This document shows positions 2 through 16,463 of a DNA stretch of 20,836 nucleotides, in pieces. Every line of letters starts with the position of its first letter. The stretch's first letter is position 1. A program made the position numbers and the translations under genes. Origin of the DNA: a virus; the IMG/VR virus record IMGVR_UViG_3300006751_000188, positions 1 through 20,836 of that record. One strand, given 5' to 3'. Below the pieces are notes generated by a model. That model searched no databases and was not told where the DNA came from. It saw only the letters and a list, made by a program, of their open reading frames with translations.

Positions 2-313
2 GCTGAGAACAGAGCTTTCGTCCGCTGCGTCCGCAACTTTTTAAAAATTCATATAGTCGCAAAAGACGAGATGGCCCCTAGCGCCAAGACAACTAGGCCC
101 ACCTCTACTGATCCTGACAACGGCGGCACAGACCCCAAGTCATTACTTCAAAGCGTTATGAAGGAAAAAGGAATTTCGTTCGACAATATTAAACAAAGGC
201 TGAAGGAAGAGAAGTTCGAGGGGTCAGAAAGTATAAAAGAAATATCAGACATATCTAATGTTAAAATTTTTGAACTAATACAAAGACTCAAAAAACTTAA
301 ATCTAAATTTTAG
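2..313 (+). CDS. C-terminal end of an unidentified protein (5' truncated by window edge)
   Basis: The reading frame is open from base 2 to the TAG at 311-313, so the ATG at 71 is probably internal and the gene enters from the left. The upstream codons read ENRAFVRCVRNF. A VRCVR-type ending is typical of C-type-lectin-like folds such as Lcl_C/DUF1566 or Fib_succ_major domains found in phage fibres; that resemblance is short and only suggestive. A Thr/Pro/Asp-rich linker (about residues 24-45 of the visible part) follows. Then comes a charged, probably helical tail rich in Lys and Glu that ends in KKLKSKF. The gene converges on the minus-strand gene at 303-629, with an 11-bp overlap and no room for a classical terminator. 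If translation did start at 71, the product would be an 80-residue basic protein of unknown function. Confidence 0.55.
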   Translation, partial: AENRAFVRCVRNFLKIHIVAKDEMAPSAKTTRPTSTDPDNGGTDPKSLLQSVMKEKGISFDNIKQRLKEEKFEGSESIKEISDISNVKIFELIQRLKKLKSKF

Positions 314-629
314 GATTATCTTCCTTAACAAATTTAATATAATTTATTAATTCATCGAGTTTCTCAGGCCTACCCATTTGCGCCTCCGTAAGGGCTTCAA
401 ATTGTTTGTGGGTGGGCCATTCAGAAAGAATACTTCTTCTTCTGTTTTCTAAGACTTCTTCATTATTTAACTTGCCTTGAAATTCTTGACTATCCCATGT
501 TTCTTGCAATTCTGATTCATTAGGTTTTGCGACCCCTTGATCCTGCCACACGAGACCCACATATGAATTGCCAGCTAGGCTCCACTCACAGTCTGCGTAA
601 TTTAATTCTAGTATTTTTGCTATGTCCAT
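303..629 (-). CDS. Small putative tail-fibre assembly protein (XkdW/DUF4376-like pattern)
   Basis: This is a 108-residue protein at the end of the leftward block. The N-terminal half has the pattern of small phage proteins encoded next to fibres: an aromatic strand (NSYVGLVWQD, about residues 21-30) followed by a 'P-x-x-x-E-L' segment. The C-terminal half contains RRRSILSEWPTHKQFEALTE (about 63-82), then a GRPEKLDELI helix and an IKxVKEDNPK ending. It resembles the 'YPs..eQLDal' module of XkdW-like or tail-fibre-assembly proteins. The start is supported by AAGGA at 635-639, five bases upstream of the ATG. The ATG shares one base with the stop of the collagen-like fibre gene (TAATG), so translation is probably coupled. 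A role as chaperone or accessory of the upstream fibre is inferred from position and motif pattern only. Confidence 0.6.
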   Translation of the reverse strand: MDIAKILELNYADCEWSLAGNSYVGLVWQDQGVAKPNESELQETWDSQEFQGKLNNEEVLENRRRSILSEWPTHKQFEALTEAQMGRPEKLDELINYIKFVKEDNPKI

Positions 630-2377
630 TATGGTCCTTGCTCTGGGTATAATTCATATATTGTTATAGAGGAGGTCGCTGCATCGCCGAAAAGGTTTGA
701 ACTACTTTTCGTTCTATTTAGATAAACTGTCCCCCGCTGCTCCGAATTCGATCGGCCCCCTATTCGAAGCTTCCAAGTTTGGCCCAAGGTGTTTGACGCT
801 GCAGCCGTATACTTTAATCTTAACGTTGCCCCCATATTTTGGCTATAAACATGACCCAGCCAAGCTTTACGCGGAGTGGTTTCGTCGTCCTTGAACAGGC
901 AAGCCATGATTTCCGTATAGTCTGTAGCTGAAAAACTTAAGTCAATTTCCATAGCCAAAAGGTGACCGGGATTGGTTGGGTAGATAGTGGCAGAAGCAAC
1001 CTCTATGCCCTGTGTACTTGTGGGGGAGTCTGAAAATCTAGATGTCGTTGCATATTCAGTATCCCATTGTGCATACACCCCCTGAATTGCCGCGCCATTA
1101 GAAAAACCTCGAGGCCCTCTTTCTCCGCTTGGCCCAGTATCGCCCGGAGTGCCCTGAAGCCCCTCTGCGCCGCTGGAAAGAACACTCCAATAATTATCGT
1201 TTACACCAGACGGGGGATTATTCGTATTGTCCGACGCAAGACTAAAATAAGAATTACCACTATTGTAAACACCATCACTGTGATAGTATTTAATAGTTGG
1301 GCTCCACTTCCCGCTCCAGTTCATGCCGACCTCACCCGTTGGTCCCTGAATACCTTGGATACCTTGGACACCTTGAATTCCCTGATCGCCTTGATCGCCC
1401 TGACTACCTTGAATACCCTGTTCCCCCGAAGGCCCCGCTTCGCCCGAAGGCCCCTGAATACCCTGCACGCCCTGAACGCCCTGAATTCCTTGCGGTCCTG
1501 CTGGCCCTGCCCCACCACGACCCATTATGTTTGCAGCAAAATATGTTTTTTTCTTGTCGCCCTCTAAGGTAATTGGTATGCTTGGGTCTGTATTATCAAG
1601 CCTCATATCAAAATAATCTCCGCTAAGACCAGAAACAATTCTCGTTATAGAGGCCTCGTTGGCCGCATAGGAATTATTATCAAAAGGGCAGGACTCAATG
1701 GTATCGCTACCATTTTTCGTGAGTTCCAAATAATAGAATTGCCAACTACTGGAGTGAATTGTTAATGCAGCCTTAGAGTCAATAAGGTAATTACCGTCAC
1801 TCTCTAACTTAAATCTGTAATTTGATGTATCATAATGTTCTTCTTTGTTCCAATCAGTATTGTCAAACTCTATAATAGATGTGGTAGAAGGATCAACAGT
1901 TTGATCGCTTCCATTCATGTGGGCGAAGAATGATGTATTAATACCTGTCTCATATTCTAGACCCTGCCTTTTATGTACCAGCCCATTTTCGTCAATTGCT
2001 AAAAACCCGGTAACGAGGGGGTTGGCGTCCACCCCGCCGACTGTTAAAGAACCCGTTATGTCTACGTCACAATAAAAATTACAATCCGATTGCCTTATAT
2101 TAAAGCAGCATTTTTCTGTCGAGGAGCTTGTATTTGCTATTTTTACCTTAAGGTCATCATCGTAAATTCTCACATTGGGGACAGTCCCAGTTGCTCGCCC
2201 ATCGCTGCCGACCTCGAAAGGTACGGGCATATGGCCGTCGAAAGCATCTACAAACCATAAACTCGTAGCTGAATGCACCCCACTACCGCTTATCGCAAAG
2301 GCACTACCAGTTAAACCCTCTACTGGTTCAAAACCAGAGATGTATATTTTCTCTTCAAATGAAAAATTATTACCCAT
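629..2377 (-). CDS. Collagen-like phage tail fibre with C1q-like and carbohydrate-binding-like modules
   Basis: This 582-residue protein is modular. Residues 1-80 form an IPT/TIG-like Ig domain (ISGFEPVEGLTGSAFAISG) like those in the upstream gene. Residues 140-285 form a beta-rich region resembling C1q/TNF-type jelly rolls (FFAHMNGSDQT; NYRFKLESDGNYLI). Residues 286-351 are uninterrupted Gly-X-Y, mostly GIQ/GVQ/GPS. Residues 355-402 are an aromatic module (GKWSP, YYHSDGVYNSGNSYF, NPPSG, NYWSVL) resembling small carbohydrate-binding domains. Residues 403-425 are a second Gly-X-Y run, and 426-582 a beta-rich C-terminal head. The Gly-X-Y runs should trimerise and the head probably binds a surface ligand; both are inference from related fibres. 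The start overlaps the upstream gene by eight bases (ATGGGTAA) and has only a weak ribosome-binding site, consistent with coupling. Confidence 0.85.
   Translation of the reverse strand: MGNNFSFEEKIYISGFEPVEGLTGSAFAISGSGVHSATSLWFVDAFDGHMPVPFEVGSDGRATGTVPNVRIYDDDLKVKIANTSSSTEKCCFNIRQSDCNFYCDVDITGSLTVGGVDANPLVTGFLAIDENGLVHKRQGLEYETGINTSFFAHMNGSDQTVDPSTTSIIEFDNTDWNKEEHYDTSNYRFKLESDGNYLIDSKAALTIHSSSWQFYYLELTKNGSDTIESCPFDNNSYAANEASITRIVSGLSGDYFDMRLDNTDPSIPITLEGDKKKTYFAANIMGRGGAGPAGPQGIQGVQGVQGIQGPSGEAGPSGEQGIQGSQGDQGDQGIQGVQGIQGIQGPTGEVGMNWSGKWSPTIKYYHSDGVYNSGNSYFSLASDNTNNPPSGVNDNYWSVLSSGAEGLQGTPGDTGPSGERGPRGFSNGAAIQGVYAQWDTEYATTSRFSDSPTSTQGIEVASATIYPTNPGHLLAMEIDLSFSATDYTEIMACLFKDDETTPRKAWLGHVYSQNMGATLRLKYTAAASNTLGQTWKLRIGGRSNSEQRGTVYLNRTKSSSNLFGDAATSSITIYELYPEQGP
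1325..1522 (-). repeat. Gly-X-Y (collagen) coding repeat, main run
   Basis: About 22 consecutive Gly-X-Y triplets (residues 286-351 of the fibre) are encoded by a degenerate 9-bp-period repeat, visible on the plus strand as variants of ccctgaataccctg. The repetitive DNA also opens long antisense frames, which are artefacts. A second, shorter Gly-X-Y run lies at 1103-1171. Copy number of such tracts is prone to change by slippage or recombination. Confidence 0.9.
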
Positions 2378-5300
2378 TATAGTTATGATCCATTATTAAA
2401 ATTTCCCCAGTAGGTGATCCCCAATCGCATGGGTATATGTCGATTAAATGAACTTGGTCATATATTGGATCACCGTAAAGGTCAGCCAGTCTTATACCGC
2501 TTATAAAATCAGTCACAATACATTCTTTTCCTGCGGCCGCGTCTTGAAATTTTACGCCCGTTGCACCTAAAAAGTTTCTACCAGATATAGTTATTGCGGT
2601 ATTTGTACGGCCCTGCTCTGGATATATTCCGGAGACAATTGGTTCTCTTCCACTTATCTCTATCGAGGGCCCCAAAAATACTAAATTTGCCTTGACGCCG
2701 GCTTGAGCAGAGCCCACATAGTCCCTTATAACATTGGGGCTCGTGGTAGTGTTAGGGTACTCAGCACTTGGCAAAAAAGTTGGGGTGTTCTCTGGAATTA
2801 AATCTTTAGATATTAAAAAGACTTGTCCAGTTCCCGCAAAAGATGAATTAATAACCCCCGTAATTATTGACTGTCCAGTTTTGAGGCTGTCCGGCATGTC
2901 TCCAGTTATGTCAAAAATATTGGAACCATACCCATTATAATAAGTCCTTTCGCCGCTAGGCACATATGCAGAACTATTTGAAATTATTTCTAGTGTATTT
3001 TTATTAGTCCTTGAAGATATGCCACTGATTGCGAGCACAGATGCGGCGTTGGTCGCATTTATGCCCGTTAGCCTAAATGTATCTCCTACATAATATTTGG
3101 TTTTTTCTATTCCACTAATTGAGGGAATGGGAACAAAAAATTGATCAGAGACTTTAAATAAATCGTCCCCGCTTACATAAAGATTACCAGCTTGAATTTC
3201 CTTAGGGACAGATATATAAGCACCAGTTTTATTTGTCAAAGTGGTATTAAGCGAACGTACATAATTATTTTCTTCACCAGTAGTGAAGCCTTGGAAATAA
3301 AAATCTACATTTTCTAAATGAGTTCCAGATATAAGGATATCTTTTCCGTGCTCTCCAGATAATGGATAGCCTAAAAATACAATCCCAGTGTCTATAATTT
3401 TCAGGATGTCCTCCGAAGTCGAAGACTGTATTATAGATGCTCCTGATTTTTGTGCAACAGAAAACGTTTGGTAGGGGGCTACGCCACTAGGTATCGCTGT
3501 TTCAATTCCGGTTGTATTCACTCCTGTGAAATCACTTACGCCGAGTACATCATAGGTCCTAGATAATGTAATTGAGTCACCTCGATGCCCGCTAAATATT
3601 ATATCTGTTACGTTGTGTAAGCTTTTTCCGGATATAGAAATTACATCCCCATAATGCCCCGACTTTGGACTAAAATCTTGGATAGCAATACTTGGTTCTT
3701 CTACTATCAGTTTTCCTAAATTATCAGATAAGTGATTATAATGATCGCCAGAGTAAACGTGGCTCCAATTTAAACAACTTATATAAACTATATTTGGAAT
3801 GATATTTTCATTTTTCCACTCTACGCCCTTATGGTCTGTTCTTACTTCCGGCGGCAAGGGGCACAAAGGGCCATCTTCAAATACTACTTCTTGTGCATAT
3901 ATATTTTCATAGTAAGTTCTTTCTGACAGCCTTAGGTCTATGCCAGTTACCCCAGTGACATAGTTGAGTTGACTCGTCTTCGAGCTATTCGGCGCATCAG
4001 AATGTCCCCTGATCCAAAGACTTAACGTCTCTCCAGAGGCTATTCCACTAAGGGGAATTTCGTAAGGGGAATATTCTATTTCTTCTACATCAGCCCCCCA
4101 AGTTTGGCTCCAAGTTCTCGCTGGGTTATAGCGCAAGTCTCTGAAATCTATATACCCAGTATGGCCAGAAATTTGGCCCATTCCATTTGAGTGTCCACTA
4201 GCCAGAACATCTCCAGTTACGCCGACAAATCCAAATTTTAATTCGCCGCTATTACTCCAAGTGTCCACCTCTCCCAAACCGTAAACAGCATCACCCGTTG
4301 TATACCCCTGCGCATTTTTAACGATCGCCCACATCCAAGAGCACCCTCGGCCCTCTAAAACTTCTTTACCAGTTACTTGATAACCACTATATAAAGTATT
4401 AGTTAGCCGCCCTTTTCTTGCGTGGAACCTTAATTTGTAATGTCCCGACTGCTCTCCGACACTATATGGCTCGATAGGAGTGCCATAAGTACCATGCCAA
4501 GGCTTTGCCACGTCTAAAGTATAAGCCGCCGCATAATAATTGCCATGTTCGTCACGCCCTACCCCAGTTTCCTCGCATGATCCATGCTTGAAGGTACAAA
4601 CATTATAAGATAGCTCTTCTGTTCCATATTTACCATATGTATCTGCAGTACTTACACCCCCTCCGGAGCCGTAAATATGAATATCGTTTGTAGTCGCTTC
4701 ATTGGGGATAACAAAATCAATACCAGTTTCACTTTCTATAGTAAAATCATTTATTGTCGTTTCCCCTATCGCCATACCAGTGACGCCAACAAATTCTGAA
4801 CCAGAGATAATAATATTCTCCCCCCACTCTCCAGTTTTCGGCAAGAACCCGCTTATTCGAGGTTCGTGCAGATATCTTGAAGAGCCGCTTATATCAATAA
4901 TTTTTATTCCATTATTAAGCCGAAGCGTCATTTTATTTGCGCCCGGTTTAATTCCTGTAATTATATTTTTATCTGGCGGGAGAGCCATAAAATCTAACTT
5001 CCAATTATCTTTGTCTATCCTAGTGTGATTCTTTAATTGGAACTTTAAACTTATACAATAATCTGGTGGTGATGATGGAAAAACGGCAGACAAAACATCA
5101 TTACCGTCTATAAATTGTTCATAATATAAATTTTTTCCAACGATAGAGAATTCAGTATCGTTTTGTATTGTTGTATCTGTGATCCAATTTGAATCGTCAG
5201 TATCTATTTCTGGGTCACTCGCAATCTCTATAGCATTTTTTGCTTTAATGAGATTGCCATCAGAATCGGCCATTACTAAATCATGCTCGCCTTGAAATCC

Positions 5301-6830
5301 ATCAGGGGGGATAAATTGGACTTCTCCCTGTTCGTTTTCAGATTGTGGTTCTTCAATAGTGAATATAGGGCCATGACTATATGGGTCGTAAACACCATAG
5401 CTAGAGCCTTGGTCCATATTCAAGTCTCTTAGGCTGTAGCCCGGAGAGCCCGTAACCATAAGGTCAATAAATTTCCCCAAGCATGTTGCCTTCACTGCGA
5501 ACGCGGTGGGTCCGCCCAAAGCGTCGGACGCTCTCCCGGTGGCAGGCGCAGCACCAACATAATAATCACCAGAAAGACCGGTAGGTTTCCAAACGTTTAA
5601 TGAATTTTGAGTTCGCACCTCTACGAACTCCAGAGGACAACAAGGAACAAGGAACTTATCATCGGATGAGCTATACCAATTACCTTCTATATTTTCATTT
5701 TTTGCGATGCTTACCCTTCCGCTAACAGCCCAATCAGGAACTATTCCGGTTAATAAAGTATCACTTTCTTTTTGAAACCAGCCCGTAGTACCGCTTGGCT
5801 CAAATGTTACTAAAAATCCAGTGGAATCTAGAACTTCAAAATAACCAGTTCCGCCGACGCCAGTATAGAAATGATCATAATAAAATAATTTATCCGGCGC
5901 GCCGCTGGGTATTTCGAAAGACGTATATGCTTCATTCCCAGACCCCGGAGTATCATAAAAAGTCACCCCTGACTTGAACTCTCCAGAATACCAACCAGAA
6001 TCTATGTCTCCCCAAGGGCCGTCTGGGATCAAACCTATTCTGAATTGATGCCCCAGATTGCTTGTATCACTTTGATTAAAATAATATGTTTGATTTTTAT
6101 ATAATTTTATCGTTGGCGTCTCGTAAAAATTATCACTCCCAGATGAACCGATGCTATAGCTTCTGGAGACAGTCCCCATAAGAAGGTCGATGCCGGTAAG
6201 TGAGCTTTCATTATATTTTATTTCATATTGATTATTAGAATCTGAGAACCCAGACATTAAATCATCAAAGAAATAATTACCCATTAAACCTATACCTTCT
6301 CCAGAGCAACCAGAGGGCGAAGAAAATCCAGTCACTTTTATGTCTGGTATGAATTTATCTTTACTTTCAGCGCTTAATTCGCCCGAAGCTTCGGAAGGTA
6401 ATTCTGAATAAACTTTGACCAAACCATATGTATTACCAGAGGGGACCGTTACAGAAACCCCAGTATTAGATTGAACTGAAAAATCCGCCGACAAGCTATT
6501 CACCTCTACCCCTGTCGTAGCATATAAAGAATTTCCAGATACCGAAAATGATTCTCCGGATATACCAGTTGAAGGATTTAAAGTTTCTATATGGGGCTTG
6601 GGATAAAATTTATTTTCTGTATATCCCGTTATCTCCCTTTCTTCAGAAATGACAGTTAGATACCCAGCTTGGGGGTTGTGAGGGACCGTGGTATTTAATA
6701 AATCTAATCTAATTTCTTCGTAAGAAGCAGGGACTTCGCCGGAAAATATAACATTACTAATCCTAGACAAGTTATTTCCAGAAATGGAAATAATATCACC
6801 GACTTGTCCTGTAGTATTTATTATTTTCAT
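2370..6830 (-). CDS. Giant modular structural protein with multiple IPT/TIG-like Ig domains and a cupredoxin-like insert
   Basis: This 1486-residue protein has no signal peptide or membrane segment. IPT/TIG-like units with the signature 'SG..G..I.ISG.nL...T.V.F.G' begin near residues 1, 80, 165, 656, 1047, 1150, 1236 and 1396; one example is GQVGDIISISGNNL and another GRTNTAITISGRNFLGATGV. About residues 236-334 resemble the cupredoxin-like domain seen in marine phage structural proteins (YYFNQSDTSNLGHQFRI, a TPGSGNEAY loop, then YYDHFYTGVGG), but most metal-ligand positions are changed. Residues 390-650 and 735-1045 are beta-rich, contain several Cys and Trp, and were not recognised. The gene lies between a tube-like gene and a fibre gene. 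It overlaps the former by one base (TAATG) and the latter by eight. It is probably an elongated tail-tip or side-fibre component, or an extended Ig-like adhesin. The exact role is unknown. Confidence 0.75.
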   Translation of the reverse strand: MKIINTTGQVGDIISISGNNLSRISNVIFSGEVPASYEEIRLDLLNTTVPHNPQAGYLTVISEEREITGYTENKFYPKPHIETLNPSTGISGESFSVSGNSLYATTGVEVNSLSADFSVQSNTGVSVTVPSGNTYGLVKVYSELPSEASGELSAESKDKFIPDIKVTGFSSPSGCSGEGIGLMGNYFFDDLMSGFSDSNNQYEIKYNESSLTGIDLLMGTVSRSYSIGSSGSDNFYETPTIKLYKNQTYYFNQSDTSNLGHQFRIGLIPDGPWGDIDSGWYSGEFKSGVTFYDTPGSGNEAYTSFEIPSGAPDKLFYYDHFYTGVGGTGYFEVLDSTGFLVTFEPSGTTGWFQKESDTLLTGIVPDWAVSGRVSIAKNENIEGNWYSSSDDKFLVPCCPLEFVEVRTQNSLNVWKPTGLSGDYYVGAAPATGRASDALGGPTAFAVKATCLGKFIDLMVTGSPGYSLRDLNMDQGSSYGVYDPYSHGPIFTIEEPQSENEQGEVQFIPPDGFQGEHDLVMADSDGNLIKAKNAIEIASDPEIDTDDSNWITDTTIQNDTEFSIVGKNLYYEQFIDGNDVLSAVFPSSPPDYCISLKFQLKNHTRIDKDNWKLDFMALPPDKNIITGIKPGANKMTLRLNNGIKIIDISGSSRYLHEPRISGFLPKTGEWGENIIISGSEFVGVTGMAIGETTINDFTIESETGIDFVIPNEATTNDIHIYGSGGGVSTADTYGKYGTEELSYNVCTFKHGSCEETGVGRDEHGNYYAAAYTLDVAKPWHGTYGTPIEPYSVGEQSGHYKLRFHARKGRLTNTLYSGYQVTGKEVLEGRGCSWMWAIVKNAQGYTTGDAVYGLGEVDTWSNSGELKFGFVGVTGDVLASGHSNGMGQISGHTGYIDFRDLRYNPARTWSQTWGADVEEIEYSPYEIPLSGIASGETLSLWIRGHSDAPNSSKTSQLNYVTGVTGIDLRLSERTYYENIYAQEVVFEDGPLCPLPPEVRTDHKGVEWKNENIIPNIVYISCLNWSHVYSGDHYNHLSDNLGKLIVEEPSIAIQDFSPKSGHYGDVISISGKSLHNVTDIIFSGHRGDSITLSRTYDVLGVSDFTGVNTTGIETAIPSGVAPYQTFSVAQKSGASIIQSSTSEDILKIIDTGIVFLGYPLSGEHGKDILISGTHLENVDFYFQGFTTGEENNYVRSLNTTLTNKTGAYISVPKEIQAGNLYVSGDDLFKVSDQFFVPIPSISGIEKTKYYVGDTFRLTGINATNAASVLAISGISSRTNKNTLEIISNSSAYVPSGERTYYNGYGSNIFDITGDMPDSLKTGQSIITGVINSSFAGTGQVFLISKDLIPENTPTFLPSAEYPNTTTSPNVIRDYVGSAQAGVKANLVFLGPSIEISGREPIVSGIYPEQGRTNTAITISGRNFLGATGVKFQDAAAGKECIVTDFISGIRLADLYGDPIYDQVHLIDIYPCDWGSPTGEILIMDHNYNG

Positions 6831-7849
6831 TATAGCCCAGAGTCTCCCACTGTTATATCCATAGAGCTATCTTTACCACCATAAGTGGTCAGATATATTC
6901 TTTGTAATCCCGGCATTGTATCATCGGCCAAAGTTCCGCTGACTTTGTTGGCGCCAAACACGGTAATTTCTTGTACAGTCCTGTCGCCAACCTGTATCGC
7001 TGTTGTATTTAGTAAGTTCGAACCATGAAGCTCAAACCCCTCCCCGCCAAGCGCCATAGCGTTTCCTGTCGTTGTCACAGATGTAAGGCTGGGTTTTTCA
7101 TCTATGAAATTCTGAGAAATACTTAATTGAGAGTTCATTATCGCTCCAGCCTGTGCAGATATAAACCTAGATTCTAAAGGTCCCGACACGCTATACTTTT
7201 CTGCGACACCAGTATCATTATTTATATTTAGCGCAGCCTGAGTTTCCTGACCTTCGAACGGTAAATTTCCGCTTATGCCGCAAGTATTTATCTCCATATT
7301 GGATTGTTTTTTTATAAACCTTATTTCTGATGGGGTAGAATCTCCAGCACAATATAATGGTGTTATCTCAGAATTAAACCCGTATCTCATGCTTTGTATT
7401 TCGTCTTCCCCGATACCGCTTTTATTTATTGTGACGTCGGTAAAAGTTAAAATTTTGTTGCTTGGTAATTTTTCTGTAGTCGGGGCAAATTCCCCACTTA
7501 GATTACCGAAAAAATCTATCGTCGCACGAACCAGAACTGGTTGAAATGGTACGCCGTTAATGCTGTGGCTAGTTAAGTAACCGCCATTAAAATAAATGCC
7601 GCCCAAACTACCCGTTAAAGCAGTCTTCTCGTTCACTATGAATGGCTTAAGCGGGTCTGATCCGGTGATGTAATAGGAAATAGAAAACGTACCCCTAGAC
7701 CCGTCAGTGGCCTTACTGAAAAAGCTACTCCTCTCCTCCGATAGATAAACTGGAGAAAGGCTGGTCTTCGAGGAGAGGTCTACACTTTTCGCAAAAAATG
7801 TATTTCCATTAATTGTTGCCTTAGCATTACTGTAGCTCGTGTATGACAT
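6830..7849 (-). CDS. Putative tail tube or tube-like protein with C-terminal IPT/TIG Ig-like domain
   Basis: This is a 339-residue protein. Residues 1-250 are beta-rich and seem to be two similar halves. Each has an opening strand (ATINGNTFFAKSVDL; VTINKSGIGEDEIQSMRYGF), a 'P-x-Y' or 'PLYCAG' turn, and a later SISYYITGSDPLK or YSVSGPLESR segment. Residues 253-335 form an IPT/TIG-like domain (GGEGFELHGSNLLNTTAIQVG). A duplicated tube fold followed by an Ig-like domain is known from the T5 tube protein pb6, and an Ig-like C-terminal domain also occurs in lambda gpV. The assignment here rests on that architecture, not on a clear motif. The start has AAAAGG four bases upstream, duplicated a further eight bases up. 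The gene follows the glycosyltransferase after a 28-bp gap and is coupled to the giant gene by TAATG. A baseplate or hub protein of tube fold is the main alternative. Confidence 0.5.
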   Translation of the reverse strand: MSYTSYSNAKATINGNTFFAKSVDLSSKTSLSPVYLSEERSSFFSKATDGSRGTFSISYYITGSDPLKPFIVNEKTALTGSLGGIYFNGGYLTSHSINGVPFQPVLVRATIDFFGNLSGEFAPTTEKLPSNKILTFTDVTINKSGIGEDEIQSMRYGFNSEITPLYCAGDSTPSEIRFIKKQSNMEINTCGISGNLPFEGQETQAALNINNDTGVAEKYSVSGPLESRFISAQAGAIMNSQLSISQNFIDEKPSLTSVTTTGNAMALGGEGFELHGSNLLNTTAIQVGDRTVQEITVFGANKVSGTLADDTMPGLQRIYLTTYGGKDSSMDITVGDSGL

Positions 7850-7877: not shown

Positions 7878-8330
7878 TTACACCTTCGAATCATCATCCG
7901 GAACTGGAGATAGATTTTCTTGGTATAGTTTTTCTTGGATTTCTGATATGGAGATCAAATCGTCGTCTTCTGTCACTTCTCTGGCTACAAATCCGTCCGG
8001 AATATCAAGAAATTGGCGAAGGTCAATTTTATCTAAATCAAAGTTTCCCGACGGGTTGTTTGGCGGCGTGCCCTCGGTTTCAAATGGAGCTAGTAATTCA
8101 TTATCTTTTAAAAATTTTTTAAAACTGGCCCACTCATCGAAACGATCCTGTTTTTCTCGAGGCTTTGAGGTTGTTCCCACCCTTGCATTATAGTGGGCCG
8201 CCACTATATCGTCTACGGGGGCTGCCAGAAACTTACATTTTACTAATTCCCTCCAAAGGAGTAAATCTTCATGTATATCTCTCTCTTCGTAAAACAGTTC
8301 TCCATCTGGGGGTATCATATTCTTATGCAT
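7878..8330 (-). CDS. C-terminal half of a frameshifted GT2-type glycosyltransferase
   Basis: The 150-residue frame begins at an ATG, but it is open upstream to 8381 and there reads SKSLEQLTFGPWATLMHKN. That is the kind of segment expected directly after the donor-site region of a GT-A enzyme. The HEDLLLWREL stretch (about residues 20-29) is the 'E-D-x-x-L-W' acceptor/base motif of GT2 glycosyltransferases, and residues 30-46 (VKCKFLAAPVDDIVAAH) continue the core. The C-terminal 90 residues are acidic and not recognised. The N-terminal half lies in the preceding frame at 8363-8866, so this is best read as the second part of one gene joined by a -1 frameshift. Independent translation from the ATG is possible, but no good ribosome-binding site was seen and half a catalytic domain would be made. 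Confidence 0.65.
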   Translation of the reverse strand: MHKNMIPPDGELFYEERDIHEDLLLWRELVKCKFLAAPVDDIVAAHYNARVGTTSKPREKQDRFDEWASFKKFLKDNELLAPFETEGTPPNNPSGNFDLDKIDLRQFLDIPDGFVAREVTEDDDLISISEIQEKLYQENLSPVPDDDSKV

Positions 8331-8362
8331 GAGCGTAGCCCAAGGCCCGAAGGTTAATTGCT

Positions 8363-8866
8363 CTAAACTTTTGCTTGCCCCTTATCAATTCGCTGGGTTG
8401 AATGATTGTATTCCCATGACCCAACCAGAAGAGGGGAATAAGTCTTTTGCGCGACCTGAAATAGGCCCTTAGCCCTGCCCACGCCCATCAAGTCATCGGC
8501 ATCATGCAGCAATATAGATTGATATTCGTCAAAAAATTTTAATGATTTTTTAATTGCTTTATTTTTAGCCGTAGCCACGTTCTTAGCTTTGTCGAAGGCG
8601 AGTATTTCGAAATGGTCAGCACGGCTTTTTTCTCTATATTTTTTTGCTACAGCCAGCGTGCCATCTACACTATAATCATCAGCAAAAACCATAGTCCATT
8701 TTGTTCCGCGCATTGCTGACTCAATACTTTCAAAATTTTTTGGCAAGAAATCTTCCTCATTGCGAGCAGACATGATAACTAAAAAACCGTTATCTTGCGA
8801 AGTACCCCAATCAACACGCTTGTTTACTTTTTTAAAAAAGTCTTGTCTTTCTTCGATGGTTCTCAT
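8363..8866 (-). CDS. N-terminal half of a GT2-type glycosyltransferase (reading frame ends early at a -1 shift)
   Basis: This 167-residue product has the GT-A nucleotide-sugar-binding fold. FLVIMSARNEE (about 28-38) is strand 1 with the ARNE motif. MVFADDYSVDGT (about 59-70) matches the 'vDDgStDgT' signature, NVATAKNKAI (about 95-104) is the conserved 'N.g.a.arN.g' helix, and LLHDADD (about 118-124) carries the DxD metal-binding motif. The acceptor-binding half is missing: the frame stops at TAG 8363-8365 while the homologous continuation lies in the -1 frame. The enzyme would transfer a sugar, perhaps to fibre proteins, to the host surface or to DNA; the substrate cannot be told. It is the first gene of the leftward block, starting next to the divergent intergenic region. 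Confidence 0.75.
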   Translation of the reverse strand: MRTIEERQDFFKKVNKRVDWGTSQDNGFLVIMSARNEEDFLPKNFESIESAMRGTKWTMVFADDYSVDGTLAVAKKYREKSRADHFEILAFDKAKNVATAKNKAIKKSLKFFDEYQSILLHDADDLMGVGRAKGLFQVAQKTYSPLLVGSWEYNHSTQRIDKGQAKV

Positions 8867-8972: not shown

Positions 8973-9521
8973 ATGGCAAGTATATACGAGAAAAGAACAT
9001 GGCAGAGCAGCGATAAGGATTTGCCATATCTCAAAAACACTGCAGTTTGGCGCCCCTCATGTAATAAATTTTATTATAACATATCTGACATTACGACTCC
9101 CGCCACCAACTGGGACCCCTGCAACAACTCCGCCACCAGCAATAAATATTGGGGCGGGCACACAAACCACAATGGCGTAGATAAGCCCCATTTCTTCTGG
9201 AAACCTTCATATAATTTAAATATAAGTAAGGCCCCCGTAGTTAAAAGTATTCGTTTTGGGGACGGGTACGAGCAAAGAATAGAGGACGGCATAAATCACA
9301 ATTTAAATATAATAGATTTAAAGTTTGAGAATAGAAGCTTAATTGAATCTACAGCTATTTTACATTTTCTAGAACACCGAGGGGGCACAGAATCATTTGT
9401 TTTCACCCCGCCGCCCCCGTACGCTAGAGCATCTTTATACGTCTGTAGGAATTGGGACTCTTCATATGTTTTTTACGATAACTACAGTATAAAAATGCAG
9501 CTTGAAGAGGTCCCTGAATAA
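8973..9521 (+). CDS. M: Lambda gpM-like minor tail protein with N-terminal extension
   Basis: The last 110 or so residues match the phage minor tail protein M family: F-x-W-x-P near 74-77, then KSIRFGDGYEQRIEDGINHN (about 91-110), a helix ending FLEHRGGTESFVFTPPPP, and a closing YVCRNWDSS...QLEEVPE. Lambda gpM is about 109 residues. This protein has 182, because about 70 residues are added in front. The extension holds YYNISD, PATNWDP and NKYWGG, a spacing of aromatics and Pro that resembles the module in the L homologue and the collagen-like fibre. gpM acts at the distal tip with L, K, I and J. It is the first gene of the rightward block and its TAA overlaps the next ATG by one base (TAATG). 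Confidence 0.88.
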   Translation: MASIYEKRTWQSSDKDLPYLKNTAVWRPSCNKFYYNISDITTPATNWDPCNNSATSNKYWGGHTNHNGVDKPHFFWKPSYNLNISKAPVVKSIRFGDGYEQRIEDGINHNLNIIDLKFENRSLIESTAILHFLEHRGGTESFVFTPPPPYARASLYVCRNWDSSYVFYDNYSIKMQLEEVPE

Positions 9522-10618
9522 TGAAAAAATCAGAAGCAAAAACATCCATAAAAAAGATAGTTAGCGATTCCGCTTCGCTTTCACCTACATCTTTAATTAA
9601 TTTATTTGAAATAGATGTATCCGAAATTGCCGTCAGCGAAACACTTTTAAAAAATGTCCGTTTCAGAAACAGCAACCCACAAACCGTTTTTAGATTTCAT
9701 AACAACGTCAAGATAACGCAAAGTGCGATATGGTTTCAGGGTGTTAAATATATAGCGGCCCCGATTTCGGCAGAGGGATTTGAGATTTCATCGAAAGGAA
9801 CTCTTCCCAGACCAAGGCTATCTCTCACCATAAACCCAAAAGGTGTAGAAAGTTTTTCTATTTTTAAAGACTTAATGAGAGATTTAAATGATCTAGTCGG
9901 CGCGAAAGTAATAAGGAAAAGAACTTTCCTAAAATATATTGATTGGGAAAATTTTTACAAAGTAGACTCGAACAAAAACCCCCTTAACCCCCTTGTTCCG
10001 ATAGTCGGTGAACTTGATCTTCCTAAAGATTTTGACCCAGACCCCAACGCAGAATTTCCTAATGATATATATTTTATAGATAGAAAATCTGGCGAAAATA
10101 AACTTAGTCTAGAATTTGAATTAGCGTCAGCGCTGGAGCTAGAAGAAGTAAAGTTGCCGGGAAGAATTCTTTCCCAAAAAAAGTGTCCATTTACATACAG
10201 GGGCGAAGGCTGCTGTTATGAATATGCCTCTAGAAAATCTTCTATACATGGAGATGCAGATTTGCCGGCCAAAGCACCCCCGATAGCTAACGAGAAAGAC
10301 GAACTTATTTCAGATGCGGTAGATAATTATGACCCCGTCTCGGCGACTATTGAGCTTTGGAAACCTAATACTCCTTATCCTGCTAAAAAGGGAGTTTTCA
10401 TTATTGTGAAGGACATCAATTACTACTATGTCGCAAAATCCGACGGGGTTCCGGCAAACGAGCCGCCACCAAATTCAAAACACTGGGTTCCTGACCAGTG
10501 CTCGAAAAGCTTAAAGGGTTGTAGTCTCCGCTGGGGAGACGGAACCGAGGGGCAAAAAAGCAGCACCCTAAAGGGACACTTGCCATTTGGGGGTTTCCCC
10601 GGAATAACTAAGAGATAA
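9521..10618 (+). CDS. L: Lambda gpL-like minor tail protein with putative iron-sulfur site
   Basis: This 365-residue protein matches the gpL family. It has PRPRLSLTINPKGVESF (about 96-112), DLVGAKVIRKRTF (124-136), FELASALELEEVKLPGRIL (199-217) and the C-terminal LPFGGFPG. Lambda gpL binds a [4Fe-4S] cluster through four cysteines. Here the matching residues are C222 and C231 or C232 (CPFTYRGEGCCYEY) plus C327 and C334 (CSKSLKGCSLRWG). About 95 residues separate the two pairs and include an inserted aromatic module at about 278-326 (LWKPNTPYPAKKG; INYYYVAKSDG; NSKHWVP), similar to modules in M and the fibre. The protein closes the tail tip below the tape measure. AGAGG lies upstream of the start, and the stop is followed one base later by the K-like gene. 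Confidence 0.92.
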   Translation: MKKSEAKTSIKKIVSDSASLSPTSLINLFEIDVSEIAVSETLLKNVRFRNSNPQTVFRFHNNVKITQSAIWFQGVKYIAAPISAEGFEISSKGTLPRPRLSLTINPKGVESFSIFKDLMRDLNDLVGAKVIRKRTFLKYIDWENFYKVDSNKNPLNPLVPIVGELDLPKDFDPDPNAEFPNDIYFIDRKSGENKLSLEFELASALELEEVKLPGRILSQKKCPFTYRGEGCCYEYASRKSSIHGDADLPAKAPPIANEKDELISDAVDNYDPVSATIELWKPNTPYPAKKGVFIIVKDINYYYVAKSDGVPANEPPPNSKHWVPDQCSKSLKGCSLRWGDGTEGQKSSTLKGHLPFGGFPGITKR

Positions 10619-10619
10619 T

Positions 10620-11336
10620 ATGTTAAACGAGCGCAATAAAAATTTTATAAAAGAACAAGCCTTGGAGGCGTCTCCATATGAATGTTGTGGTTTGCTTGTG
10701 TCTAATGGGAAGGGGGGTGAGCGGGTTGTAAGGTGTAGAAATACGGCCGAGAATCCAAAAGAAAATTTTACTATTTGTCCGGAAGACTACCTTAAAGGTT
10801 CCTCGGAGGGGGAGATCGTAGGTACATACCACTCTCACACGAACCACCTTGATGTATTCTCAGAATTTGACAAATTTAATAGTGAGTCTCATAAATTAAA
10901 ATATATTTTATATTGCCTGAAGAATGATACATTTTTAGAATACGACCCAGACTACGAATTTAATTCTTACGCTGGAATAGAATTTAAAATTGGCGAAGCG
11001 GACTGTTATAACTTGGTGAAAGATTTTTATAACAAAGAACTTTCTATAAAATTGAACGATTATTTTAGAGATGAAAATTGGCGGGACAACTTGGAGGAAT
11101 TATTTGATAAGAATTATACCGACGAAGGATTCGCTAAAGTGGAGGGCGAATATAAAAAATATGATTGCCATCTTTTTAAGTATAAAAAAAATTCACCGTC
11201 GCAACACATAGCAGTAAATTTAGGAGATGATCTTATATTGCACCAGCCCCTTAATAGTCTTTCCAGAATAGAAAGATTAACAGACAGACACAAGCAATAC
11301 ATAAACTATACAATTAGACATAAGGATTTATTATGA
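10620..11336 (+). CDS. K: Lambda gpK-like tail-tip protein: JAMM peptidase plus NlpC/P60 hydrolase
   Basis: Two catalytic domains are visible in 238 residues. The N-terminal JAB/MPN+ domain keeps a complete JAMM zinc site: E21 in PYECCGLL, then H71-x-H73-x7-S81-x2-D84 in YHSHTNHLDVFSEFDK. The C-terminal NlpC/P60 domain has the nucleophile C129 in GEADCYNLVKDFY, H196 in QHIAVNLGDD, and H208 in LILHQP as a probable third residue or structural position. This is the architecture of lambda gpK, thought to cleave peptidoglycan or process a tip component during infection. Neither active site is obviously broken, although the NlpC domain is short. AAGAG precedes the start, and the stop overlaps the next ATG (ATGA, 11333-11336). 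Confidence 0.93.
   Translation: MLNERNKNFIKEQALEASPYECCGLLVSNGKGGERVVRCRNTAENPKENFTICPEDYLKGSSEGEIVGTYHSHTNHLDVFSEFDKFNSESHKLKYILYCLKNDTFLEYDPDYEFNSYAGIEFKIGEADCYNLVKDFYNKELSIKLNDYFRDENWRDNLEELFDKNYTDEGFAKVEGEYKKYDCHLFKYKKNSPSQHIAVNLGDDLILHQPLNSLSRIERLTDRHKQYINYTIRHKDLL
11322..11326 (+). promoter_or_regulatory. Ribosome-binding site of the I-like gene
   Basis: AAGGA sits six bases before the ATG at 11333 and inside the end of the K-like gene. The whole leader AGGATTTATTATG recurs almost unchanged before the J-like gene (AGAATTTATTATG, 12011-12023), which suggests a shared translation-initiation leader. Confidence 0.6.
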
Positions 11337-12010
11337 ACCAAACAGTTGACGTTACTTTGCATGGGGTTCTCGGGGAATCAGTTGGGGAAAAATGGAAGCT
11401 TGCTGTTTCTAGCGTTGCAGAAGCTATGCACGCTATCCAAATGAATTCCGACCGCAAACTTTACAAAACGCTACTTGAAAACGATAAAAAGAATATAAAA
11501 TATAAAGTTCTAGTAAATAAAAAAGAAGTAAAGACAGAGAAAGAATTAACAATAGATGATCCAAAAGCCATAAGGGAATCTGAGCTCTGCATAGAGAAAA
11601 AAAATATAAAAAGTATAGACATAGTACCCGTATTGGAGGGGGCAGGAAGTTTTTTTGAAAATGCTTTCTTTGCTATTTTTATGGGGGTTGTTTTAGCTGC
11701 CGCCGGATTAGGCTTGCTCGGCTTTGCGTCCAATCCGATGCTGCTTATGGCTGGCCTAGGTTTAATTTTTCAAGGCGTAGCCAACTTGCTGGCAACCCCG
11801 CCGAAATTTGAAGAGTTCAGAGATATAGAACAAAATCAATTAAACAAAAGATCATCTTATCTATTTTCCGGCCCGCAGAATACTGTAAATGAGGGCGGTC
11901 CGATCCCCGTACTTTATGGAAGACTATTAATAGGGTCACAAGTTATAGCATCGTCTTATGAAATAGATTATAAAAAATCCTCAGAAGCAGGATCAACAAT
12001 AACATCATAA
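11333..12010 (+). CDS. I: Lambda gpI-like tail assembly protein
   Basis: This 225-residue protein has the usual gpI layout. There is an N-terminal beta-grasp-like domain (VTLHGVLGESVGEKWKLAV, then SVAEAMHAIQMN, residues about 6-100) and a long hydrophobic Gly/Ala segment at about 107-160 (FFAIFMGVVLAAAGLGLLGF; LLMAGLGLIFQGVANLLATP). The C-terminal motif KRSSYLFSGPQNTVNEGGPI, followed by PVLYGRLLIGSQVIAS, is diagnostic of the family. In lambda, gpI is needed for tail-tip assembly and acts with J and K. The hydrophobic segment could be a membrane-active hairpin, as proposed for this family; no function is shown here beyond the match. The start overlaps the K stop (ATGA) and has a good ribosome-binding site; J begins ten bases after its stop. 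Confidence 0.9.
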   Translation: MNQTVDVTLHGVLGESVGEKWKLAVSSVAEAMHAIQMNSDRKLYKTLLENDKKNIKYKVLVNKKEVKTEKELTIDDPKAIRESELCIEKKNIKSIDIVPVLEGAGSFFENAFFAIFMGVVLAAAGLGLLGFASNPMLLMAGLGLIFQGVANLLATPPKFEEFRDIEQNQLNKRSSYLFSGPQNTVNEGGPIPVLYGRLLIGSQVIASSYEIDYKKSSEAGSTITS

Positions 12011-12020
12011 AGAATTTATT

Positions 12021-15000
12021 ATGCCAACCGAATCACCAGAAGGAATTTTTAGAGGAGCGACTTCGTCCGCGGGTGACCGTTACTTTTCCGTTAGCCAAAT
12101 AGAAACCCAAGACCTTTTGTCCGAGGGCCAAATAGAAGGTATCGTAACTGGCGAATACCTTTATAATGGCACGCAGGGAAATGTTGGTTGGGATACAGCA
12201 ACTCTTGGCCCAACATATTCTTTCCTTCGTTCGATGTACTGGAATGAGGTTCCAGTAATGGATAGCAGTAATAACCTCAACTTTCAACAAGTTACTGCTA
12301 AAGTCAGCAAAGGAAAACCCAATGGCGAGGTGGACACAAGGGACAAGCTAAAAGAGGAAACCTCCTTAACTAGAAATATATCTGAAAGACTCAGGGGGCC
12401 GACCTATATAGGCGGTCGCCTTGCTGCGGCCCAAGATGAATTCGCAAAAATCTATCGGGTTCTTAATAAAGACTGCAGCAGGATAAATGTAAATGTTAAA
12501 GTAACTAGTTTATCTAAAACAAGCAGACTCCCCGCGTCGATGGGAGACATAGTAGATAGTTACGTTGAGTGTTCCTTAAGATATAGGCCGCTTTTTTCCA
12601 CAGCAGGAAAAGAGGTCTCCTTTATAAGCTCTGGCGCAGATTTCAAAGTCCGCGGAAAAAGTAGTGGTCCATATATTCACTCCGCCTACCTTGGCCTCGC
12701 GCACTCTCACTCCTTGGATCCCGATTTTATAGGTTGGGAAATTAAGATATGGAGAAATACGGCGGAGCCTGAGACGATGGACATAAGAAATCAAACATAC
12801 GTTGATAGTATAACAGAAGTTTATAATTCTAAATTTGCCTATCCGAATTCAGCGATAGTGTCACAAAAATTTAGTGCAGAATATTTTAGCAGTATTCCCC
12901 AAAGAGCATTTGATACGAGGGGGATAAAAGTAAAGATTCCTTCCAACTACGACCCCATTAAGAAAACATACACTAATTACTGGGATGGTAAGTTTTCCAC
13001 AGATACCAGTGGCCCCTATGGGGGCAAAGGTAAATACTGGACCGATAACCCAGCATGGTGCTTTTATGACCTAATTACAAATAGTAGATATGGTCTTGGT
13101 AAATATATTCCAGAATCTTTTGTCGATAAATGGAGCCTATACGAAATAGCAAAATACTGTGATGTACTCGTTCCCGACGGCATGGGTTCGGTAGAACCAA
13201 GATTTACCTGTAACTTGTATATACAGTCTAGAGATGAAGCCTTCAAGGTTGTTAATGATATGGCTAGTATATTTAGGGGTATAGCCTATTCTGCTGCTGG
13301 GGGAATTTTTACTATACAAGATTCTGAGAAAGACTCAATATATACTTTTTCTAATGCGAGTGTAAAAGACGGAGATTTTAATTATTCTAATAGTAGTAAA
13401 AAAGTAAGACATACCGTAGCAATAATAAGATATAATGATAAAACTAATTTTTATAAACCAGCCATAGAGTATGTAGAAGATGTCGATGGCATAAGAAGAC
13501 ACGGCATACGAGAAACCGAAATGACAGCTTTCGGATGCACGAGTCGCGGACAAGCCGTAAGGTTAGGCAGATGGGCTCTATTTACTGAGAACATGGAAAC
13601 AGAAAGTATAAGCTTCTCTGTCGGCGTCGAGGGCGCATACATGAGACCCGGAGATGTATTTACAATTCACGATTCAAATCGGACAACGAAAAGATGGGCC
13701 GGCAGATGCAAGATGATAGACATATATCCCTCGAGCAGCACTCATACAGATGGTTATAATAAAATTGTTATTGATCAAGACATAATGGCCCAAGTCAAAC
13801 AGGGAAGAGAGTATAAGTTTACCTTATTAACGCCAACGTATAATTATGACCCTACGCAAGTAACCGATTTAGATTCCAGAGACTATTCTGATATAAGAAG
13901 AACGCAAATACAAAATTATGTTTTTACCGGCTCAAATTCAGCCAGCCCTAGCGTTGCCCCATATACATATGATAATGGTAATACGGGGCATTACCCCGAG
14001 TTGAGTGGCTATACTGTTGTAAATCTTTTTAGTGGTTTTAATGACGATGATCACGTTATCAATAAAAATTCTGTTTGGACGATAGAACCAACTTCCGCAG
14101 ATTATACCGCTAGCGAACTAGAAGACGGGGTGCTTCCCGATAATAAATTTAGAGTAATAAAAACAGAAGAAACTGAAGACGGTTTTTATAATGTGGCGGG
14201 ATTAGAATATTCAGAAAATAAATATAGTGCAATCGAATCCGGCCTGAGTTTTGATGACGCCATAGTAACTGTTATTCCAGATCCGCCGAAAGATATAATA
14301 CTTTCTGAAAGGGTGGTGACGACGAACACAAGATTAATTGATTATGAAATCACAAAACCAGATAATCTAAATGGTTTGTCTAATTATAACGTTTATACAA
14401 AGCAGGCCTCGCAATGGAGTAAAAGGGATTATACAGGAAATTACCCCTACTTAATTTCCCAAGGAAACTTAGACGCAAAGCAAACAGACGATAAACTTAT
14501 CCCTGATGCGAGGTGGAGAGTTGCAGTTTTACCGCATGATACGCGGACCGACACTTATTTACCCACGGGAAAAGGAGATTACATTTTTAGGGCATTTTCT
14601 TCTAACATAGCTGGCGTACACTCGCAGGGCAGCGCGGTTAAAAAAATTAATATTTCTAAAGTTCAACCTCTCCTTGATGTAAAGATAAAAAACTTAAGAG
14701 AACTGGATGATACAGACCAACAAGATAACCCGGCGGGACATAAACAGTCATATACAACAACTAAGACTGATCTAAAATTTAAATGGGAAACGGAAGTCGC
14801 TTCTGAACAAGTTTCTCTTTCCAATTACTCTTATAGAATTACAGTTAGGGAACCGACCTTCAAACAATCTATAAGTTCAAATATTCTATATGAAACCACA
14901 GACTACAACCCAGACTCAAATTTATATGCTGAAGGTTCAACTGCACTTAATGGTTGGGACTTGGACTTTACCGGAAATGCGGGCAATTTAAAAAATGGCC

Positions 15001-16463
15001 CGTGGAGACAGTTCGATGTGGTCGTTGAAGCTCACGATGATAATAATAATAGTTCTGCAGGAGGGACATTTAGTTCGACCTCAGATTCGAACTACACCAA
15101 TACCAACGGCTATGATAAATATGAAATATTTAACCCTGCTATAACTGACCCTATCTTGGGCACAAGCAGCAATATCATAACAGAACAGACTTTAACCATA
15201 GATAAAGAAGTAAAAATTCTTTTCAGAAGAAACAAATACACAGACATAGAGGGCGCATACGTATACATTAGTAAAGACCCCTTTACTACATCTGACGTAC
15301 AGTGGAAAACTTCGGCAAAAGTAGCAAGCGATAGGGCATCGGCCGGAAAAGCGGTTATTGAAATTCATAAAGTTGAACCATTCAACAATACAATTATAGT
15401 AACTCCCGAAGACTATGACCTAAGGAACACAGAAACAGCATATATAGCGTATAGCCTTTATGATTCTTTTGACAAGCAGCGGGCCGTAACGCTTCAACCT
15501 TCTCAGGAACCTCTCCTCCAGCCAAACGTAACTGACATGCACGTTAGTAATGTAGCGACCATTAAAAAAGGAACTGAAATTATTGACGTAGTTGGAGATG
15601 GATACAAAGTTTGGGTGAGGATGACAGTAGATGGCCGCTGGGTAGGCAAGGGAATTGATCGGGTCGAGGCGCTCGACATGACTAAAAATGCCAGTAACGG
15701 AGCTTTGCCTGACCGTTATAAAAAATATAATGGTTTTTCGCAGTACTCCTGTTCTGCAATTCATTCATATTTGGGTGTTCAGGACCCTTGGGGTGGTGCC
15801 TATGGCCCATTTAATGTTAAGTGGGCATCTGACGGAGGAATAAATGGATTAGGGAGAGTTCCCGCAGGGGAACTTGCGGCATATTTCCCAAATTACTATT
15901 GCGGGTGGGTACCAAGGACTCTCAATCGCGGCGGTAGAATAAGACCCGTATATAACGATATGAACAACCCCGGCGCCGGGATTAAAAAATGGGAGAAGAT
16001 GGACAATTATAAAGAAACTTTCAGAAGATATAGAATATGGATTGACACCAAATTTGCCCCCGATTCTGATGATTACGCAATTATTGGACTGAACATAAAC
16101 AATCACGGATATGAAGACCTTCATCCAGTTGATCAACAGAATTTCCAAGCATACTATATACACACGATGGAATTAATTAGCAGAAATCCTGTTTGGAAAG
16201 ACGCGAACGGCAATTCTACAGAGCCCGGTGGATATGATAGTTATTATGGCAGCAGCCCCGGCGGCATACAGCATCACCCCGCTGGTTTCGGTCAGGGTTT
16301 TGGCAACTTAGTAAGGAATAAAAAATATTTTGATGTCCACTTGGGGCACCTTATAGACATGAGTTATCTAAAGGAGGGGTTCTTTGGAATGTTGACTCAG
16401 GGCGACGACAAAGATCAAGGCGGCAAGACCATCACCCCCAACATGGACGGTAGGGCTCGCTAA
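12021..16463 (+). CDS. J: Lambda gpJ-like central tail hub / host-specificity protein
   Basis: This 1480-residue protein carries the gpJ N-terminal signature TQDLLSEGQIEGIVTG (about 28-43). Hub domains follow up to about residue 560, including the EAFKVVNDMASIFRGIAY-type segment and MRPGDVFTIHDSNR (about 541-554). Residues about 768-885 look like a fibronectin-III-type unit (YIFRAFSSNIAGVHSQGS). A further beta-rich stretch (about 900-1170) precedes an unrecognised C-terminal region (about 1180-1480) rich in Gly, Tyr and Trp, which is the position of the receptor-binding part in lambda gpJ (1132 residues). The extra length lies mainly in that distal half. The gene is last in the M-L-K-I-J series and lies ten bases after I, with an AAAGAA leader. 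Receptor and host cannot be deduced. Confidence 0.92.
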   Translation: MPTESPEGIFRGATSSAGDRYFSVSQIETQDLLSEGQIEGIVTGEYLYNGTQGNVGWDTATLGPTYSFLRSMYWNEVPVMDSSNNLNFQQVTAKVSKGKPNGEVDTRDKLKEETSLTRNISERLRGPTYIGGRLAAAQDEFAKIYRVLNKDCSRINVNVKVTSLSKTSRLPASMGDIVDSYVECSLRYRPLFSTAGKEVSFISSGADFKVRGKSSGPYIHSAYLGLAHSHSLDPDFIGWEIKIWRNTAEPETMDIRNQTYVDSITEVYNSKFAYPNSAIVSQKFSAEYFSSIPQRAFDTRGIKVKIPSNYDPIKKTYTNYWDGKFSTDTSGPYGGKGKYWTDNPAWCFYDLITNSRYGLGKYIPESFVDKWSLYEIAKYCDVLVPDGMGSVEPRFTCNLYIQSRDEAFKVVNDMASIFRGIAYSAAGGIFTIQDSEKDSIYTFSNASVKDGDFNYSNSSKKVRHTVAIIRYNDKTNFYKPAIEYVEDVDGIRRHGIRETEMTAFGCTSRGQAVRLGRWALFTENMETESISFSVGVEGAYMRPGDVFTIHDSNRTTKRWAGRCKMIDIYPSSSTHTDGYNKIVIDQDIMAQVKQGREYKFTLLTPTYNYDPTQVTDLDSRDYSDIRRTQIQNYVFTGSNSASPSVAPYTYDNGNTGHYPELSGYTVVNLFSGFNDDDHVINKNSVWTIEPTSADYTASELEDGVLPDNKFRVIKTEETEDGFYNVAGLEYSENKYSAIESGLSFDDAIVTVIPDPPKDIILSERVVTTNTRLIDYEITKPDNLNGLSNYNVYTKQASQWSKRDYTGNYPYLISQGNLDAKQTDDKLIPDARWRVAVLPHDTRTDTYLPTGKGDYIFRAFSSNIAGVHSQGSAVKKINISKVQPLLDVKIKNLRELDDTDQQDNPAGHKQSYTTTKTDLKFKWETEVASEQVSLSNYSYRITVREPTFKQSISSNILYETTDYNPDSNLYAEGSTALNGWDLDFTGNAGNLKNGPWRQFDVVVEAHDDNNNSSAGGTFSSTSDSNYTNTNGYDKYEIFNPAITDPILGTSSNIITEQTLTIDKEVKILFRRNKYTDIEGAYVYISKDPFTTSDVQWKTSAKVASDRASAGKAVIEIHKVEPFNNTIIVTPEDYDLRNTETAYIAYSLYDSFDKQRAVTLQPSQEPLLQPNVTDMHVSNVATIKKGTEIIDVVGDGYKVWVRMTVDGRWVGKGIDRVEALDMTKNASNGALPDRYKKYNGFSQYSCSAIHSYLGVQDPWGGAYGPFNVKWASDGGINGLGRVPAGELAAYFPNYYCGWVPRTLNRGGRIRPVYNDMNNPGAGIKKWEKMDNYKETFRRYRIWIDTKFAPDSDDYAIIGLNINNHGYEDLHPVDQQNFQAYYIHTMELISRNPVWKDANGNSTEPGGYDSYYGSSPGGIQHHPAGFGQGFGNLVRNKKYFDVHLGHLIDMSYLKEGFFGMLTQGDDKDQGGKTITPNMDGRAR

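Follow-up and report, generated by a model that had tools for sequence, protein, structure and literature searches.

Organization of the locus

The stretch of DNA analysed here, called the window throughout, is a 20.8-kb virus record from an uncultivated long-tailed bacterial virus (siphovirus). A near-identical longer contig, G001 (24.5 kb), adds sequence to the left of the window. Three genes for proteins with IPT/TIG domains were found on the minus strand, in an operon that begins with a glycosyltransferase gene and is divergent from the tail-tip gene M. The genes of the locus are as follows.

303..629, minus strand: gene of a 108-aa partner, last of the module (phrog_9114; kept in G002 and G007)
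629..2377, minus strand: fibre/head protein gene, 582 aa (N-terminal TIG, C1q-like stretch, collagen repeats, Pgp3/TNF-like C-terminus)
2370..6830, minus strand: TIG-chain protein gene, 1486 aa, seven TIG units by unit profile
6830..7849, minus strand: tube-fold protein gene, 339 aa (AlphaFold2 and Foldseek)
7878..8866, minus strand: family-2 glycosyltransferase gene, operon head, split in two within the window
8973..16463, plus strand: lambda-like tail-tip genes M, L, K, I and J, homologues in order, divergent from the module
17244..20834, minus strand: 3' part of the tape measure gene, converging from the right side

The tube and chain genes meet at a TAATG at 6830 with a 1-nt overlap, the chain and fibre genes overlap by 8 bp at 2370-2377, and the fibre and 108-aa genes meet at another TAATG at 629. 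These are the junctions that an earlier sequence-only reading of this DNA had given, and they are borne out. A frameshift joining the tube and chain proteins in the window was considered and rejected, as no slippery sequence was seen by eye at the TAATG and the spacing varies among relatives. With homologues of M, L, K, I and J in the right order, the window contains a lambda-like tail tip.

The break in the glycosyltransferase gene comes down to a single base near 8378 that G001 has and the window lacks, and the gene is intact as a single 266-aa gene in L012 and L008. Encoded first in an operon for tail fibres, a glycosyltransferase could have fibre or tail proteins as its substrates. At 16474-17247 of the window lies the gene of a 257-aa protein whose residues 147-225 resemble a domain shared by numerous proteins of baseplates and virions (phrog_5342 and others). 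To the left of the module, in L011 (G001:1-9000) and L016, an NAD epimerase-like gene, two glycosyltransferase-like genes and a DNA polymerase III alpha-like end are found; these names were read from sequence, with a single Pfam hit tested, in L016.

IPT/TIG domains in the three proteins

The sequence-only reading had noticed an Ig-like signature shared by three consecutive genes. The signature proves to be that of the IPT/TIG domain, of which one copy ends the 339-aa protein, seven lie in the 1486-aa protein and one starts the collagen fibre.

6836..7099, minus strand: tube TIG, residues 251-338 (profile and fold; position kept in relatives)
6600..6827, minus strand: chain TIG unit 1, residues 2-77 (the chain opens directly with a TIG)
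6348..6599, minus strand: chain TIG unit 2, residues 78-161
4632..4865, minus strand: chain TIG unit 3, residues 656-733 (within the variable middle)
3399..3689, minus strand: chain TIG unit 4, residues 1048-1144
3162..3371, minus strand: chain TIG unit 5, residues 1154-1223
2856..3125, minus strand: chain TIG unit 6, residues 1236-1325
2376..2645, minus strand: chain TIG unit 7, residues 1396-1485 (passes Pfam TIG)
2090..2350, minus strand: fibre TIG, residues 10-96 (unit profile)

The pattern G..[IVFLMA].[IVLM].G..[LFVY] occurs eight times in the three proteins, against 0.35 times in composition shuffles. An HMM trained solely on the units of the 1486-aa protein scores 19.2 bits on the fibre N-terminus, where the best of 2000 fibre shuffles reaches 11.3. 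On the tube C-terminus it scores 8.6 bits, a value exceeded by about 4 of 2000 tube shuffles, so that the tube TIG is marginal from the window alone. It becomes firm through Pfam hits in relatives, a profile match in the PDB and fold comparison. Searched against the PDB, the tube profile aligns over residues 260-340 with the TIG domain of SGBP-B (E 1.7e-4), and a profile of all nine window units matches SGBP-B at E 1.8e-9. The tube proteins of relatives exceed the Pfam TIG cut-off, and PF01833 is found above its gathering cut-off in 13 of 15 records, mostly within the tube protein. Unit 7 is the sole window unit found by Pfam TIG alone (21.8 bits, cut-off 20.9); the window tube and fibre units score below that cut-off and are recognised by profile or fold.

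The C-terminus of the 339-aa protein is predicted as a beta-sandwich, for which Foldseek returns the TIG domains of SGBP-B and EBF1. The expected Ig/TIG fold is thus seen in the predicted structure of this domain, the one TIG that was folded. Among 265 ORFs from relatives the window-unit HMM has hits in 26, and these are without exception tube, chain or fibre genes of the TIG module; among 265 shuffled ORFs it has none. A tree of the TIG units lacks resolution, with the first units of several chains clustering weakly, and for this reason no recent common origin is claimed for the TIGs of the three proteins.

A duplicated tail-tube fold

Ahead of its TIG, the 339-aa protein is predicted to be a duplicated tail-tube fold of the T5 type.

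7100-7849, minus strand: duplicated T5-type tube fold, residues 1-250 (AlphaFold2/Foldseek)

By itself the window protein gave no match in Pfam, PHROG or the PDB and no significant match in the phage collection. Peptide-pattern searches returned only two relatives; a DNA motif search for YYxTG[AS]DP then uncovered the family in uncultivated viral contigs. AlphaFold2 reached a pLDDT of 80.7 with 16 relatives, and about 25 for the N-terminal part with three sequences. The best Foldseek matches to the resulting model are T5 pb6 (E 1e-8) and T5 p140 (E 7e-7), followed by the tail tube (MTP) of SH-Ab15497, and the "tube-like" call of the earlier reading was correct. The tube of P74-26 stands lower in the list with a TM of 0.49 by query. 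Alignments to these four proteins span nearly the whole protein, with TM mostly 0.42-0.50 by query; such values of 0.4-0.5 suggest the same fold and not close kinship. Comparison with viral predicted structures yields more tail tube proteins. The two fused tube domains are recognised by fold, and sequence profiles detected neither the internal duplication nor the similarity to pb6. The protein of one relative, L042, matches Phage_tube_2 at 24.4 bits, just below the 27-bit cut-off.

Chain and fibre proteins

TIG units make up about 40% of the 1486-aa chain. Its residues 215-1042 are mostly non-TIG, with one TIG inside. The regions below complete the description of the chain and fibre.

3705..6188, minus strand: variable middle of the chain, residues 215-1042 (differs from G002)
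1334..1507, minus strand: collagen-like repeats of the fibre, residues 291-348 (other repeats in G002; absent in G007)
635..1021, minus strand: conserved C-terminal head domain of the fibre, residues 453-581

Between the window and G002 the chain ends (1-214 and 1043-1443) are conserved and the middles differ. The G002 chain consists of three ORFs of 993, 263 and 2218 aa; residues 1-214 of the window chain align with the start of the first and residues 1043-1443 with the end of the last, and the middle bears three Laminin_G lectin-like domains. In the window, chain residues 237-329 (5844-6122) resemble virion structural proteins of marine cyanophages, with E down to 1e-5. The fibre is likewise conserved at its ends (5-143 and 453-582); its middle consists of collagen or of other repeats, or is lacking, as in the 255-aa fibre of G007. 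The 108-aa gene follows the fibre gene in the window, G002 and G007, and its product is probably a fibre assembly factor.

Distribution and gene order among relatives

About 12 lineages of the TIG-tube family were collected, all from uncultivated viruses. No relatives were found among the genome contigs of bacteria and archaea searched, and the tube proteins of the window, L042 and L029 had no match in 50,697 phage records. A TIG-chain gene follows the tube gene in six lineages (window/G001, G002, G005/G007/G013, G006, G011/G012 and L040). In a seventh, L028/G010, tube and TIG chain share one open frame of 796 aa in the locus and 1048 aa in the record; this fusion, as read from the sequence, fits a physical association of the two proteins. 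G002 (about 35% identity) and G007 have the tube, chain, fibre and 108-aa genes in the order of the window. Judged from such gene order, the three genes are one conserved module. The lineages G008/G009/G014/G018, G016 and G017 keep the ring TIG, while a search of their records found no other TIG-bearing gene, and the ring TIG can therefore have a use without the chain. In L032, a contig of 4.3 kb, the tube gene is followed by an ORF of opposite orientation, and the contig L027 stops at the tube gene.

Wherever both are in view, the TIG-tube gene is divergent from gpM and adjoins it, or adjoins tube paralogues that do. One or two additional paralogues of the tail-tube fold (276-302 aa) lie directly beside the TIG-tube gene in L026/L055, L028, L029/L056, L035, L040 and L044, and there may be several special rings per tail. 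One lineage has, on the TIG side, another gpM-like gene that contains a collagen-like stretch (L029:8315-8914, L056:6296-6895). Tape measure open frames of 4737-5143 aa were found in G007, G008 and G018, with parts in L049, L050 and L053; by the usual rule, these lengths correspond to tails of roughly 700 nm or more.

Major tail tube or second ring

In G007 and G008 the TIG-tube gene is not the one found where a bulk tube subunit gene belongs, with neck genes on one side and the tape measure gene on the other. A different protein is encoded there (424 aa in G007, 372 aa in G008), on contigs that also carry the TIG-tube gene. The neck genes were assigned by gene order and size, a family-match search having given none. 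Profile-profile comparison links the 424/372-aa protein to a 302-aa tube paralogue at 95.8%, and this paralogue to the TIG-tube family at 97.4%, with unrelated proteins at most at 0.3%. As this comparison is transitive and the direct one with the TIG-tube family is negative (0.5% probability), the tube identity of the 424/372-aa protein is good, not final. The gene position and the coexistence with another tube protein in G007 and G008 fit, at the level of genes, a ring protein of the p140 type. Rather than the major tail tube, the 339-aa protein thus probably forms a second ring close to the tip, comparable to T5 p140. Since the window breaks off within the tape measure gene, a separate major tube in the window virus is drawn from these relatives.

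The sequence-only reading had proposed an undescribed side-decoration system on the tail. The tube fold and the TIG domains stand, and the genes prove to form one conserved module. A placement over the whole tail surface is unlikely, and a distal side-fibre anchor is favoured from G007 and G008. Nor is the kind undescribed, as Ig decorations of tube proteins and Ig-anchored side fibres are known from lambda gpV, T5 pb6 and T5 p132.

Proposed assembly and alternatives

With a probability of roughly 0.5, the products of the three genes make up a side-fibre module of the siphovirus tail, consisting of a tip ring, a TIG stalk and a fibre head joined via TIG. Together the three proteins probably hold side fibres on the tail, with docking that we infer. 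By fold, three copies of the 339-aa protein would assemble into a single pseudo-hexameric ring that continues the tail tube, its TIGs pointing outward; the number three would follow from the two fused tube domains, as in T5. From the gene position in relatives, this second p140-like ring would lie at the tail tip beside gpM. The outward TIGs of the ring may then hold the 1486-aa TIG chain as a stalk with a variable adhesin-like middle. At the far TIG end of the chain, the fibre would be held through its own N-terminal TIG, and its C1q/TNF-like head, with swapped middles, would contact the host surface. More tentative is the full scheme as a new anchoring system, in which a second ring with a fused TIG docks the TIG chain and the chain docks the TIG-headed fibre, through TIG-TIG joints and with swappable middles. 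If the joints are TIG-TIG, this would explain the exchange of adhesins among such phages with fixed ends.

The 339-aa protein could instead be the major tail tube, with its TIG decorating the whole tail, like the Ig domains of lambda gpV and T5 pb6, and chain and fibre lying along the tube surface. Its fold and domain order match those of T5 pb6, the top Foldseek hit, and the window stops short of the usual major-tube position upstream of the tape measure gene. However, G007 and G008, with the same gene in the same place, have their other, profile-linked tube protein at that position, and the one or two further tube paralogues of some relatives suit special rings better than a bulk subunit. 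As another protein occupies the major-tube position in the readable relatives, decoration along the whole tail is unlikely. An assignment to a head-proximal structure, such as a neck-passage-like collar or whiskers, has very little probability. Some lactococcal phages have neck-passage structures made of collagen-like proteins, and collagen-like genes lie near the neck genes in G008, but in the lineages seen the TIG-tube gene keeps company with gpM and the tip genes, not with neck genes.

A slightly better case than for the major tail tube can be made for TIGs as promiscuous surface domains that three tail proteins gained independently, serving in glycan binding or as spacers with no mutual docking, though we still consider this improbable. 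Ig-like domains are common on phage tails, where they are thought to be weak binders of cell-surface sugars (PMC10721106; PMC8718954), the top matches in the PDB are to SGBP-B, glycan-binding lipoproteins, and the ring TIG is retained in lineages where no chain was found. Against such independent acquisition, the TIGs are confined to one module among the surveyed ORFs, the genes remain adjacent and ordered, and a tube-chain fusion exists.

Comparison with known systems

The 339-aa protein shares with T5 pb6 a duplicated tube fold and a C-terminal Ig-type domain. The Ig domain of pb6 is Big_2 (PMC8718954), whereas here it is TIG; pb6 is the major tail protein, which the 339-aa protein probably is not, and there is no match between the two at the sequence level. 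Lambda has homologous tip genes (M, L, K, I, J), and its gpV likewise carries a C-terminal Ig domain. However, gpV has a single tube domain, and unlike in the lambda tail (gpV, gpM-L-K-I-J, Stf/Tfa) the tip genes of the window and its tape measure gene are on different strands. Bacteroidetes SGBP-B (PDB 6e57, 7k44) gives the best TIG matches by both sequence profile and fold, but is a bacterial surface glycan-binding protein and not a virion protein.

Side-fibre attachment to siphovirus tails is structurally known for few phages. In T5, the last pb6 ring is followed by a p140 ring and then by the distal tail protein, and the Ig-fold collar p132 encircles the p140 ring and holds the side fibres (PMC10038345). 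The module would resemble this p140/p132/pb1 system in having a tube paralogue as a putative ring adjoining the distal tail protein and an Ig-fold element for side fibres. It differs in that p140 has no Ig domain and p132 is a separate protein, whereas the putative ring protein of the module carries an Ig-type domain of its own, and in that the proposed stalk is a TIG chain. The T5 authors consider p140/p132 limited to T5-like phages (PMC10038345); the module described here would be a second solution beside it, with anchor and ring in one protein.
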